Assembly (NCBI GenBank): GCA_030693575.1
Contig: JAUYAG010000001.1
Coordinates: forward strand, 1 to 41,241
Source: Brevundimonas sp.
Lineage (GTDB): Bacteria; Pseudomonadota; Alphaproteobacteria; Caulobacterales; Caulobacteraceae
Direction of reading: 5' to 3'
Length of the DNA: 41,241 nucleotides
In this document: positions 19,400 to 24,050 of the stretch, one piece after another
How the letters are laid out: every line of letters starts with the position of its first letter
How positions within the stretch are numbered: the first letter of the stretch is position 1
Program-made: the position numbers and the translations under genes
The notes under the pieces: generated by a model
Told to the model about the DNA's origin: nothing
What the model saw: only the letters and a program-made list of their open reading frames with translations
Database searches by the model: none

Positions 19400-20875
19400 A
19401 TGAAGATCGAGTTCGTCGCGTCCGCGGGCGCTGCTGAGGTTCTGGCCGTTCTGGTCCACGAAGGCCGGGTCCTCTCCGGCATGGGCCCACAGCTCGACAC
19501 GGCAACCTCAGGTGCGCTGACGAAGGCGATGACGGCTGGCCGCTTCACCGGCGGCTCGAACAGCACGCTGGTGATCGCCGCGCCCGCCGGAGTCGAGGCG
19601 GGGACCATCCTGCTCAGCGGCGCGGGCGAATCCGGCAAGTTCGACGACCTCGCCCTCGAGGCCGCCGCCGGTGCCGCCTATCACGCGGTGAAGCTGTCGG
19701 GCGCGGCCGTCCTGACCCTCGACGCCGCCCACCTGACCGCCGACCAGGCGGCCCGCGCGGCCTTCGCCGCCCGTCTGGCCGCCTACCGGTTCCTCAAATA
19801 CCGGACCAAACTGAAGCCCGAGAAGACGCCGTCGATCGAGACAATTCGTGTCGTCGCCGCCGATCCGAAGGCCGCTGAGGCCGCCTGGGCGAACCATGCC
19901 GCCGTCGCCACGGCGGTCGAGTTCGCCCGCGACCTCGTCGCCGAACCGGCCAACGTCCTCTACCCGGAAGAGTATGCGAAGCGCGTGAAGGCCCTCGAGA
20001 AGCTGGGCCTCGAGGTCGAGGTCCTCGGCGAGAAAGAGCTCGAGAAGCTCGGCTTCCGCACCCTGCTGGCCGTGGGCCAGGGCAGTGTGCGCGACAGCCA
20101 GGTCGTCATCATGAAGTGGAACGGCGGCAACAAGGGCGACCAGCCCATCGCCTTCGTCGGCAAGGGCGTGACCTTCGACACCGGCGGCATCTCCATCAAG
20201 CCGGCGGACGGCATGGAAGAGATGAAATGGGACATGGGCGGCTCGGCCGCCGTCGTCGGCCTGATGCACGCGCTCGCCGGCCGCAAGGCGAAGGTCAATG
20301 CGATCGGCGTCATCGGCCTGGTCGAGAACATGCCGGACGGCAATGCCCAACGTCCGGGCGACGTGGTCATGTCGCTGTCGGGGCAGTCGGTCGAGATCCT
20401 GAACACCGACGCCGAGGGTCGCCTCGTTCTGGCCGACTGCCTCTGGTACACCCAGGAGCGGTTCAAGCCGAAATTCATGCTCGACCTCGCCACCCTGACC
20501 GGTGCCATGATCGTGGCTCTGGGGCTGGAATACGCCGGGGTGTTCTCCAACTCCGACGAACTGGCGAACAACTTCCTGGCCGCCGGTCCCAAGGTCGGCG
20601 AGAACGCCTGGCGGATGCCGATCCCGGCCTTCTACGAGCGCCACATCGACACCCCGATCGCGGACGTGAAGAACACCGGCAACGGCCGCGCCGGCGGTTC
20701 GATCACCGCCGCCCTGTTCCTGCAGCGCTTCACCAACGGCGTGCCCTGGGCCCACATCGACATCGCCCCGACCGCCTGGGTCAAGGACAGCCGCAACCCG
20801 ACCGTTCCGGACGGCGCCGTCGGCTGGGGCGTGCGCACGCTCGACCGGATGGTCCAGGATTCGTACGAGTCCTAG
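19400..20875 (+). CDS. pepA: Leucyl aminopeptidase (M17), cytosolic
   Basis: FVGKGVTFDTGGISIKPADGMEEMKWDMGGSAAVVG, NTDAEGRLVLADCLWY; no signal peptide. Confidence 0.96.
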   Translation: MKIEFVASAGAAEVLAVLVHEGRVLSGMGPQLDTATSGALTKAMTAGRFTGGSNSTLVIAAPAGVEAGTILLSGAGESGKFDDLALEAAAGAAYHAVKLSGAAVLTLDAAHLTADQAARAAFAARLAAYRFLKYRTKLKPEKTPSIETIRVVAADPKAAEAAWANHAAVATAVEFARDLVAEPANVLYPEEYAKRVKALEKLGLEVEVLGEKELEKLGFRTLLAVGQGSVRDSQVVIMKWNGGNKGDQPIAFVGKGVTFDTGGISIKPADGMEEMKWDMGGSAAVVGLMHALAGRKAKVNAIGVIGLVENMPDGNAQRPGDVVMSLSGQSVEILNTDAEGRLVLADCLWYTQERFKPKFMLDLATLTGAMIVALGLEYAGVFSNSDELANNFLAAGPKVGENAWRMPIPAFYERHIDTPIADVKNTGNGRAGGSITAALFLQRFTNGVPWAHIDIAPTAWVKDSRNPTVPDGAVGWGVRTLDRMVQDSYES

Positions 20876-20925: not shown

Positions 20926-21384
20926 GTGAGTGTCGGTCCGGAAATCTGGTTCTACCACCTTGAGCGGTCGACCCTGGAACAGGTGCTGCCCGGCCTGATG
21001 GAGAAGACGCGTGATCGGGGTTGGCGGGCGCTCGTGCGCGCCGCCGACGCCCGTCTGCTCGATGATATCGACGAGCGTCTGTGGACCTATCGCGACGACA
21101 GCTTCCTCGCCCACGGCCGGGCGTCCGGGCCGGAAGCGGCGCGTCAGCCCATCCTGCTGACCGAATCGCTTGAGAACCCGAACGACGCTCAGGCGCTGTT
21201 CATCGTGGACGGTTCAGAACTGGGCGACACGAAAGGCTTCGAGCGATGCTTCATCATCTTCGACGGACGGGACGAGACGGCGCTGACCGGCGCGCGGGTC
21301 CGGTGGAAGTCGCTGAAGGACGCGGGCGCGGCTCTGGCCTACTGGAAACAGTCTCCGGAAGGACGCTGGGAAAAGGCGGCCTGA
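20926..21384 (+). CDS. holC: DNA polymerase III chi subunit
   Basis: WFYHLERSTLEQVLPGLMEKTRDRGWRALVRAADARLLDDIDERLWTYRDDSFLAHG...QPILLTE; GTG start; follows pepA, a common arrangement. Confidence 0.93.
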   Translation: MSVGPEIWFYHLERSTLEQVLPGLMEKTRDRGWRALVRAADARLLDDIDERLWTYRDDSFLAHGRASGPEAARQPILLTESLENPNDAQALFIVDGSELGDTKGFERCFIIFDGRDETALTGARVRWKSLKDAGAALAYWKQSPEGRWEKAA

Positions 21385-21695
21385 TCGCGGTGCTGGCTCT
21401 GGCGGCCTGCGCGGCACCCGCCTCGGAGGCGCTTGCGCCCCGCGCCATCGAGGAAGCCCAGATCAACCAGCCGACCGGCTCGCGCCCGTCGAACCCCACG
21501 GCCGACATGTGCCGCGCGGGTGAACTGCAATGGCTGGTCGGGAAACCCAGGACCGACATCCCCGTTCCCGTTGATGTGGTGAACCGGCGCGTCACCTGCA
21601 CGACATGCCCGGTCACCGAGGACTATTCGCCGACCCGCCTGAACATCTTCTTCAACGAGCAGACCGAAGTCGTCGAACAGGTCCGCTGCGGTTGA
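21303..21695 (+). CDS. Lipoprotein resembling I78 peptidase inhibitors, copy 1 (start uncertain)
   Basis: ...LIAVLALAACAAPAS lipobox; CRAGELQWLVGKPRTDIPVPVDVVNRRVTCTTCPVTEDYSPTRLNIFFNEQTEVVEQVRCG. The only conventional start close upstream is GTG 21303, inside holC. Confidence 0.75.
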   Translation: MEVAEGRGRGSGLLETVSGRTLGKGGLIAVLALAACAAPASEALAPRAIEEAQINQPTGSRPSNPTADMCRAGELQWLVGKPRTDIPVPVDVVNRRVTCTTCPVTEDYSPTRLNIFFNEQTEVVEQVRCG

Positions 21696-21717
21696 GCCCC
21701 TCACAGGATACGCGCCG

Positions 21718-22014
21718 ATGAAATTCCAGGCCCTCACCCTCGCCGCCACGGCCCTGCTGATCGCATCCTGCGCACCCGTGGACGCCGGCGACCCGGCACC
21801 GATGCCGCCCGAAGACGGTCCGACCCAGTGCAGGGCGGACCAGTATCAGCGCTACGTCGGCCGCAACCGCTCGGAACTGCCGGCGCGCCCGTCGGGCGAG
21901 GTGTGGCGCGTGACCTGCACCACCTGCCCGGTGACCATGGACTACAGCCCCGCTCGCCTGAACATCCTGTTCGAGGAGTCCACCGGTGTGATCCGTGAGG
22001 TCAAATGCGGATGA
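21718..22014 (+). CDS. Lipoprotein resembling I78 peptidase inhibitors, copy 2
   Basis: MKFQALTLAATALLIASCAPV lipobox; CRADQYQRYVGRNRSELPARPSGEVWRVTCTTCPVTMDYSPARLNILFEESTGVIREVKCG. Confidence 0.85.
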   Translation: MKFQALTLAATALLIASCAPVDAGDPAPMPPEDGPTQCRADQYQRYVGRNRSELPARPSGEVWRVTCTTCPVTMDYSPARLNILFEESTGVIREVKCG

Positions 22015-22283
22015 GAGCGCTGATCCCCGCCGCCGGCCTCGTGCTCACGGCCTGCGCGCCTGTGGAAGCGACGCCGGACACGACGCCAATCCCGCAGCGC
22101 TGCGATGCGGCGGCCGCCCGGTCGCTCATCGGTTCGCATGTCGGCGCGGTGTCCTTCCCGCAGGGCACCGACGTCCGGATCGTCTGCACCACCTGCCCGA
22201 CGACGAAGGACCTGCGGCCGGATCGGCTGAACGTCCGCTTCGTCGAGGCCACCGGGATCATCGAAAGCGTGGACTGCGGCTGA
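22011..22283 (+). CDS. Lipoprotein resembling I78 peptidase inhibitors, copy 3
   Basis: MRALIPAAGLVLTACAPVEA lipobox; CDAAAARSLIGSHVGAVSFPQGTDVRIVCTTCPTTKDLRPDRLNVRFVEATGIIESVDCG; ATGA overlap with copy 2 (alternative in-frame ATG at 22005). Confidence 0.83.
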   Translation: MRALIPAAGLVLTACAPVEATPDTTPIPQRCDAAAARSLIGSHVGAVSFPQGTDVRIVCTTCPTTKDLRPDRLNVRFVEATGIIESVDCG

Positions 22284-22352
22284 TCCCGCCCGCTCTTGGC
22301 GAACGCCGGCTTTCGCGACAAGGTGGCGGTGAGGGCAGGGGAGGCCCCGATC

Positions 22353-24050
22353 ATGCGCAAACTTCTGCTGGCCGGCGTCGCCCTGACCGTATCGCTGATT
22401 GGCCCCGCCGCCGTTGCTGACGCGACGGCCGAGCGCGCCATGCTCGACCGGATCGAACGCCCGCAGGTCTGCGGTCCTGCCGTCTCCGCCAACACCGGCA
22501 CGCCGGTCGCGGACATGGTCATGGTCGAGGGCTTCGGAACCGGCGGTTTCGCCGTCGACACGACCGTCCCCGAAGCCCAGGCATGGTTCAACCACGGGGT
22601 CCGGCTGCGCTGGGCTTTTGAACACAAGGAGTCGGTGCGCGCCTTCCGCAAGGCGCGGCTGCTCGACCCGACCTGTGGCATGTGCGCGTGGGGCGAGGCC
22701 TGGGCGCTCGGCCCGAACCTGAACGGGGGCGGCAACGACGACGACAGCCAGTCCGCCGCCCTGAAGGCCGCGCGCGATGCCCGTCGGCTGGCGCGCCGCG
22801 CGACGCCGATGCAGCGCCAGATGATCGACGCCCTGGTCCAGCGCTATTCGGGGCTGAACGGCTCGCGCGACCGGCGCTTCGCGCAGGCCATGGACCGGAT
22901 CGCCCGTCGCAACCCCTCGGACATTACGGTCGCGGCCATCACCGCCGACGCATGGATGCTCAAGGCCGATGAATGGTGGGACGACGACGGCAAGGCGAGG
23001 GATCCCGGCATCACCCGGGCCATGGGCATCCTCGAACAGGCGCTGGCAGCGGCGCCGAATGATCCGGGCGCCATCCACCTCTACATCCACCTGACCGAAT
23101 GGTCGGACGATCCGCACAAGGCCATCCCCTACGGCGAGCGTCTGGCCACGCTGGCGCCCGGCGCGAGCCATCTGGTGCATATGCCGTCGCACACCTTCTA
23201 CCGGGTCGGCCGCTATCGCGACGCCATGATGTCCAACGTCAACGCCGTGGCCCTGGACCGGCAGTACGACCGCCTTGCCCGGCCGCCCGGCGGCGTGCCC
23301 GGCATGCCCCTGCACGGCCACAACATCCATTTCGGCATGGGCGGTGCCTTGATGGCGGGCGGGGGCGAGGAAGGCCTGAAGCTCGCCGAATGGTTCCTCG
23401 CGACCTATCCGGACATCCCGGCCGACAACATGTGGCGGCAGATGGTCGCCAACAACGCTTACGCCAACTACGGCCGGTTTGGTTCTGCAGAGCAGGTCGC
23501 GGCCCTGCCGGAGCCGGCCGCCACCCACCCGATGCTCCGTGTCAGCTGGCGCTATGCGCGGGGCGAGGCGGCTGCGCGGGCGGGTGACGCCGCCGGGGTC
23601 CGGGCCGAGGCCGCCGCGATCGAAGCGCTGCGCGCCGACCCGTCGTTTGCTTCTGGACCGATGGCCGCCGAGCGGCGTGACTTCACCGAACTGTCCCAGC
23701 GCGTGCTTGAGGGTCGCGCCGCAATGATCGCGGGCGACGCGGACGCCGCCATCGCGGCCTTCTCCCGCGCGGCCGCGATCCAGGGCCAGGGCGAGGAGGG
23801 CGGCGATCCGCCGATCGTCTGGTATCCGACCCGCCGCAGCCTCGCGGCCGCCCTGCTGCTGAAAGGCGACGCCGCCGCTGCCCGGGCCAAGGTGCTGGAG
23901 CTGATCGAGGACTGGCCGAACGACCCCTACAGCTATTTCGTCCTCGCCGAGGCCGAAGCGGCGCTGGGCGATGCGACCGCCGCCGCCGAGGCGCGCCGCC
24001 GGTCGCGGATCGAATGGATTGGCGGGGCCATGGACCTGAAGCTGGCCTGA
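22353..24050 (+). CDS. Exported tetratricopeptide-repeat protein
   Basis: Signal peptide MRKLLLAGVALTVSLIGPAAVADA; FNHGVRLRWAFEHKESVRAFRKARLLDPTCGMCAWGEAWALGPNLN, later TPR-like helices. Confidence 0.85.
   Translation: MRKLLLAGVALTVSLIGPAAVADATAERAMLDRIERPQVCGPAVSANTGTPVADMVMVEGFGTGGFAVDTTVPEAQAWFNHGVRLRWAFEHKESVRAFRKARLLDPTCGMCAWGEAWALGPNLNGGGNDDDSQSAALKAARDARRLARRATPMQRQMIDALVQRYSGLNGSRDRRFAQAMDRIARRNPSDITVAAITADAWMLKADEWWDDDGKARDPGITRAMGILEQALAAAPNDPGAIHLYIHLTEWSDDPHKAIPYGERLATLAPGASHLVHMPSHTFYRVGRYRDAMMSNVNAVALDRQYDRLARPPGGVPGMPLHGHNIHFGMGGALMAGGGEEGLKLAEWFLATYPDIPADNMWRQMVANNAYANYGRFGSAEQVAALPEPAATHPMLRVSWRYARGEAAARAGDAAGVRAEAAAIEALRADPSFASGPMAAERRDFTELSQRVLEGRAAMIAGDADAAIAAFSRAAAIQGQGEEGGDPPIVWYPTRRSLAAALLLKGDAAAARAKVLELIEDWPNDPYSYFVLAEAEAALGDATAAAEARRRSRIEWIGGAMDLKLA

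Follow-up and report, generated by a model that had tools for sequence, protein, structure and literature searches.

In this work we have analysed a stretch of 41,241 nucleotides of Brevundimonas sp. DNA (contig JAUYAG010000001.1; the window in what follows) in which three small genes for predicted lipoproteins follow one another on the forward strand. ORF1 (21303–21695; copy 1 or group A), whose start is uncertain, encodes an I78-like lipoprotein with its lipobox cysteine at 21408. Its I78 domain, from the first cysteine to the closing CG (21510–21692), matches Pfam family PF11720 and carries the motif CTTC at 21597–21608 and, in the position equivalent to P1, a glutamate at 21618–21620. ORF2 (21718–22014; copy 2 or group B) is the I78 lipoprotein with the strongest family score, and it also gave a structural model with fold matches; its lipobox cysteine lies at 21769, its domain at 21829–22011, CTTC at 21916–21927 and the P1-equivalent methionine at 21937–21939. 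ORF3 (22005–22283; copy 3 or group C) starts 10 bases before ORF2 ends and encodes a divergent I78-like lipoprotein whose fold matches eglin c and AFUEI, with the lipobox cysteine at 22053, the domain at 22101–22280, CTTC at 22185–22196 and a P1-equivalent lysine at 22206–22208. Each protein consists of a lipobox and one domain of 60–61 residues, and all three share the pattern C..A......(V/I)G...........R(V/I)xCTTCPxTxDxxPxRLN(I/V)xF.E.T....V.CG. The ORF2 domain is 40–54% identical to those of ORF1 and ORF3, and 21 of about 61 columns are invariant, far above chance. Besides the lipidated cysteine, every mature domain has four cysteines, at domain positions 1, 30, 33 and 60. The initial annotation had described three tandem lipoproteins with a lipobox and a common motif, CTTC in each copy and four cysteines per mature domain, and all of this is borne out at the positions given above.

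Upstream of the triplet lie pepA, which encodes an M17 leucyl aminopeptidase (19400–20875, forward strand; PF00883, 3.8e-123), and holC, which encodes DNA polymerase III chi (20932–21384, forward strand, start approximate; PF04364, 1.3e-33) and overlaps the 5' part of ORF1 with its 3' end. Downstream, on the same strand, an exported TPR-like protein is encoded at 22347–24050, for which no Pfam family scored above its cut-off; the wider region includes lptD, surA, lptF/lptG, panC and mipZ. It had been proposed that the lipoproteins and the TPR protein form a dedicated envelope cassette. Our survey of gene neighbourhoods speaks against this, since the TPR gene adjoins only 13 of 78 loci, all from close relatives, as against 75 of 76 loci with enough flanking sequence in which holC lies directly upstream; we therefore rejected the TPR protein as a constant partner. 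In 61 of 73 loci pepA is found upstream as well. The association with holC is one of position and does not have to imply a shared function.

Where does ORF1 begin? Translation from the GTG at 21303 gives an acidic leader of 35 residues which does not look like a signal peptide, and translation from a CTG at 21366, inside holC, gives the more lipoprotein-like MGKGGLIAVLALAAC. Since the 5' part of ORF1 is read inside holC, a suitably placed ATG, GTG or TTG is missing from many of its orthologues. It is thus possible that ORF1 uses a non-standard start codon (21366–21410 of the window). In many Brevundimonas orthologues (loci L033–L112) CTG is the sole candidate start at signal-peptide distance.

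The family assignment was examined with profiles and with predicted structures. Against Pfam I78 (PF11720, cut-off 23.6 bits) ORF2 scored 26.5 bits and ORF1 23.4 bits alone and 25.1 bits in context; ORF3 fell below the cut-off with 13.5 bits. Potato inhibitor I (I13, PF00280) was not reached by any of them, the best score being 15.7 bits against a cut-off of 24.5, and no NCBIfam model was found for the three lipoproteins. A search of the PDB with the single sequence of ORF2 returned only chance matches, so that profiles were needed: a profile of 30 CxxC domains found AFUEI (3w0d) at 7.6e-4 and then eglin c at about 0.04, and a profile of seven sisters free of CxxC found AFUEI at 1.2e-8 and eglin c at 0.009. 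AlphaFold2 modelled ORF2 and ORF3 with pLDDT values of 93.3 and 88.3; both models consist of three strands and a helix, strands 1 and 2 being joined by a long loop, an arrangement like that of AFUEI. For both models Foldseek ranks 1–48 were eglin c, AFUEI, CI-2 and plant or other potato-I inhibitors; the best E-values were modest (0.02–0.07), as expected for 60 residues, and the matches were uniform. The ORF3 model superimposes on AFUEI with a TM-score of 0.67. A thioredoxin-like fold around CxxC was rejected, as all leading Foldseek matches of the two models were of the potato-I type. The loop residues T-x-D/E...R-L-N are present as in I78, and both terminal cysteines of the domain, which are bonded in a disulfide in AFUEI, occur in ORF1–ORF3 as well as in 297 of the 304 unique relatives. 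We classed ORF3 as a divergent I78-like paralogue because of its similarity to ORF1 and ORF2 and its fold, despite the Pfam result. The resemblance to I78 noted earlier therefore holds by profile for ORF2 and, in context, for ORF1, not for ORF3; the fold supports it for both modelled proteins, ORF2 and ORF3. We assign the three proteins to the I78/eglin c type of family and fold with high confidence.

CTTC had been placed at the presumed reactive-loop position. In the HMM alignment, RVxCTTCPVTMDY..RLN of the lipoproteins lies on RVLHPGDMITMEY..RLN of AFUEI (AFUEI sequence from PMC8954713). The first cysteine of CxxC closes strand 1 in the ORF2 model; in the loop, which comprises residues 35–46, the second cysteine comes third and Met41, the residue aligned with P1, stands in the middle. 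Met45 of AFUEI and Leu45 of eglin c fall into one register in the profile alignment, and since Leu45 is the P1 residue of eglin c, CTTC should correspond to P8–P5 and not to the scissile site. With good confidence, based on these models and alignments, we place it where strand 1 ends, shortly ahead of the predicted cleavage site; the motif would adjoin the reactive bond and not lie on the bond itself, which refines the earlier placement. The annotation's statement that the I78 pattern has roughly RPG at this place is supported, as other members often read RPG or RPGD there.

Among the inhibitors of known structure the closest is AFUEI, the Aspergillus fumigatus elastase inhibitor (MEROPS I78; 3w0d/3w0e), which shares the fold (TM-score 0.54–0.67), the terminal cysteine pair and the loop I/V-T-M-E/D-Y...RLN with methionine at the same place in the profile alignment. 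It differs in being a secreted fungal protein, whereas ours are lipoproteins, and in reading H-P-G-D where these carry C-T-T-C (PMC8954713). Eglin c and CI-2 (I13, PF00280) share the fold and the loop register (PVT-L45-D in eglin c), and CI-2, like copy 2, has methionine at P1 (M59 mutants are among the fold matches); the position of Arg53 in eglin c is, however, occupied by asparagine in the lipoproteins. Neither eglin c nor CI-2 is known to contain a disulfide. ATSI, BTI, LUTI and related potato-I trypsin inhibitors of plants were likewise found among the fold matches (7al8, 3rdy, 1dwm, 1vbw). The loop of ATSI, a potato-I inhibitor, is constrained by one disulfide, and Lys45 serves as its reactive residue against trypsin (PMC11817793). 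The disulfide of the plant proteins (Cys4–Cys49) ties the loop, at its primed side, to the N-terminus, while the CxxC of our proteins is local and belongs to the non-primed side. Bacterial I78 proteins of the canonical IRPGDAVTMDY type are likewise lipoproteins with the terminal cysteine pair and the T-x-D...R loop, mostly with methionine or glutamine at P1, but they lack CxxC.

How widespread is CxxC? Relatives were surveyed with an HMM. Among 304 unique domains, a sample of related sequences that leans towards CxxC through the use of CxxC profiles, both cysteines were present in 219, neither in 85 and a single one in none, and 26 different dipeptides occupied the two middle positions. CxxC is common in Caulobacteraceae and occurs in a second family of Caulobacterales as CHDC, CHNC, CATC, CFEC and other forms, whose genes frequently stand in tandem with CxxC-free sisters; seven loci of that family (L159, L162, L165, L168, L172, L173 and L177) hold mixed arrays of up to four I78 genes with and without the motif. 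It was also found in one further alphaproteobacterial genome (L140), in a Sinorhizobium copy on pSymA with CSKC, situated between IS elements, and in one Sphingosinicella copy. Most other I78 proteins that we read lack it, and it was absent elsewhere among the class- and phylum-level relatives, of which the best loci were read. We therefore rejected the ideas that CxxC is a sporadic oddity of this genome, given the 219 unique sequences with both cysteines, and that it is confined to Caulobacteraceae, given the other Caulobacterales family, L140 and pSymA. Judged from these sequences CxxC is a family-level trait; its wide occurrence and its changing middle residues had escaped the initial annotation. 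Parsimony on a tree of 115 domains counted 10 changes of CxxC, the tree being too short to count gains, and a single origin is possible. We found no description of CxxC in I78 within the open-licence literature searched.

Two of the scattered copies have further features. The CSKC protein of Sinorhizobium meliloti pSymA (L198, 2288–2686) lies between IS66 and IS21 genes and has an N-terminal segment WAPE..IRNHP, which is found ahead of I78-like domains in L005, L012 and L161 too. The copy of Sphingosinicella sp. YJ22 (L065, 8001–8183) is a chimera which does not lie beside holC: its last 54 bases are 93–96% identical to Brevundimonas copy A and its first half resembles copy B (77% at best).

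The three paralogues differ at P1, the position by which loops of this kind select their protease, a point that the initial annotation missed. Across 80 GTDB loci the order A-B-C is kept, with a CxxC-free copy D in some. Where three copies carry CxxC (34 loci), the P1-equivalent residue is glutamate in A (34/34 by codon count), methionine in B (34/34) and lysine or arginine in C (31/34). The Jensen–Shannon divergence of this column reached 1.58 of a possible 1.585, the highest divergence between groups among 61 columns, a rank shared with one column that is a deletion in C. At the same loci P2 is threonine throughout A, B and C and P1' is aspartate or glutamate; among the 304 unique domains threonine occupies P2 in 294, an acidic residue P1' in 298 and arginine P6' in 301. 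The basic character of P1 in copy C is kept in 30 of 32 sequences across the codons AAG, AAA, CGG, CGC, CGT and AGG, and the tree of C genes calls for 7 residue changes at P1 but for only 2 between basic and non-basic residues. In several Brevundimonas without C, copy A has glutamine or histidine at P1, and because of this group glutamate is not universal in A; such residues were seen in the two-copy loci L074, L076, L080, L083 and others. Single-copy Caulobacter genes have methionine, and this residue is likely ancestral, with glutamate and lysine or arginine having probably come later. The pattern suggests acidic, hydrophobic and basic specificities, so that proteases of three kinds may be inhibited by the set as a whole. 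Such a pattern would be expected of inhibitors whose specificity diverges and not of proteins with a purely structural or metal-binding role.

From the sequence, family, predicted fold, loop position, cysteine pairing, paralogue-specific P1 and synteny that we observed or computed, we arrive at the following model, in which inhibition, disulfide, specificity, target and envelope localisation are what we infer. Each of the three envelope lipoproteins would carry one I78 domain of the eglin/potato-I type and inhibit serine proteases by the standard mechanism. Its loop between strands 1 and 2 would offer P3–P1' (V/T-T-x-D) to the protease and be held by the set Thr(P2)/Asp(P1')/Arg(P6'). The cysteines at P8 and P5 would be joined in a short CxxC disulfide that stiffens the loop at its foot, from the non-primed side, and the terminal cysteines would form the usual I78 disulfide. 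Tandem duplication beside holC may have given rise to paralogues differing at P1, of which methionine would suit the hydrophobic pocket of elastase-, chymotrypsin- or subtilisin-like enzymes, glutamate a Glu-specific protease and lysine or arginine a trypsin-like one. We regard this whole explanation as probable; the inhibition of serine proteases by these lipoproteins is likely, and the precise assignment to Glu-specific, hydrophobic-pocket and trypsin-like enzymes is only somewhat favoured.

Which proteases could be the targets? The genome, which is 93.8% complete, was searched by family and gave no match to S8 subtilases and three to S1, all with the hallmarks of HtrA/DegP when inspected by eye; no cognate protease gene was found near the triplet. 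The targets would therefore be HtrA-like enzymes or proteases from outside, such as those of predators or competitors. The trio would accordingly either restrain HtrA-like periplasmic proteases or shield the cell envelope from several protease classes.

What the CxxC does had been left between a redox role, metal binding and a disulfide-pinned loop. The last is the best reading and the evidence favoured neither of the others: a disulfide is the simplest explanation because forms with one cysteine are absent, the spacer is free to vary and DsbB, found by the family search, is present in the genome, and we consider a disulfide bracing the loop to be quite likely. Could the bond be a reversible switch, braced and active when oxidised, loose and inactive when reduced, which ties envelope redox to protease control? 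In redox systems a CxxC is often found next to a functional loop, and the strict pairing of the cysteines with variable middle residues would fit it, but there is no thioredoxin-like fold and no partner gene, the neighbour is holC and not a dsb gene, and DsbB in the envelope favours a permanently oxidised bond; we think this distinctly unlikely. A related proposal, three complementary P1 residues on one scaffold directed against foreign proteases with CxxC as a redox-controlled on/off brace, is rather unlikely. That CxxC binds a metal such as Cu(I) or Zn(II), perhaps together with the P1 methionine or other residues of the loop, which would make these metal-handling lipoproteins on an inhibitor fold, is brought to mind by CTTCPVTM in copy 2 and CHxC in some other Caulobacterales. 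Copies 1 and 3, however, keep CxxC with glutamate or lysine/arginine replacing methionine, and the Thr/Asp/Arg loop residues are near-invariant as in inhibitors even in sisters free of CxxC, and so we hold metal binding to be highly improbable.

Homology to I78 is in itself no proof that the bacterial members inhibit proteases. The domains may have lost inhibition and become structural or protein-binding envelope lipoproteins whose loop binds another partner, and it is in keeping with this that we found no description of inhibition by bacterial members in the literature we could search and that no cognate protease is evident. Yet P2, P1' and P6' are near-invariant and P1 is fixed and specific to each paralogue, the pattern of an inhibitory loop, and we judge such a loss to be unlikely.

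The lipoprotein triplet is real; ordinary by family, it is a distinct variant, I78 lipoproteins probably braced by CxxC and with a paralogue-specific P1. Bacterial I78 proteins are common and, within the literature we could search, almost unstudied. Here one cluster offers a single scaffold with glutamate, methionine and lysine or arginine at the predicted P1, together with matched sisters with and without CxxC, and so provides a direct test of protease inhibition by the I78 lipoproteins of bacteria. It could also show what a local CxxC does to a canonical inhibitory loop, and whether anti-protease coats of multiple specificity exist in bacteria.
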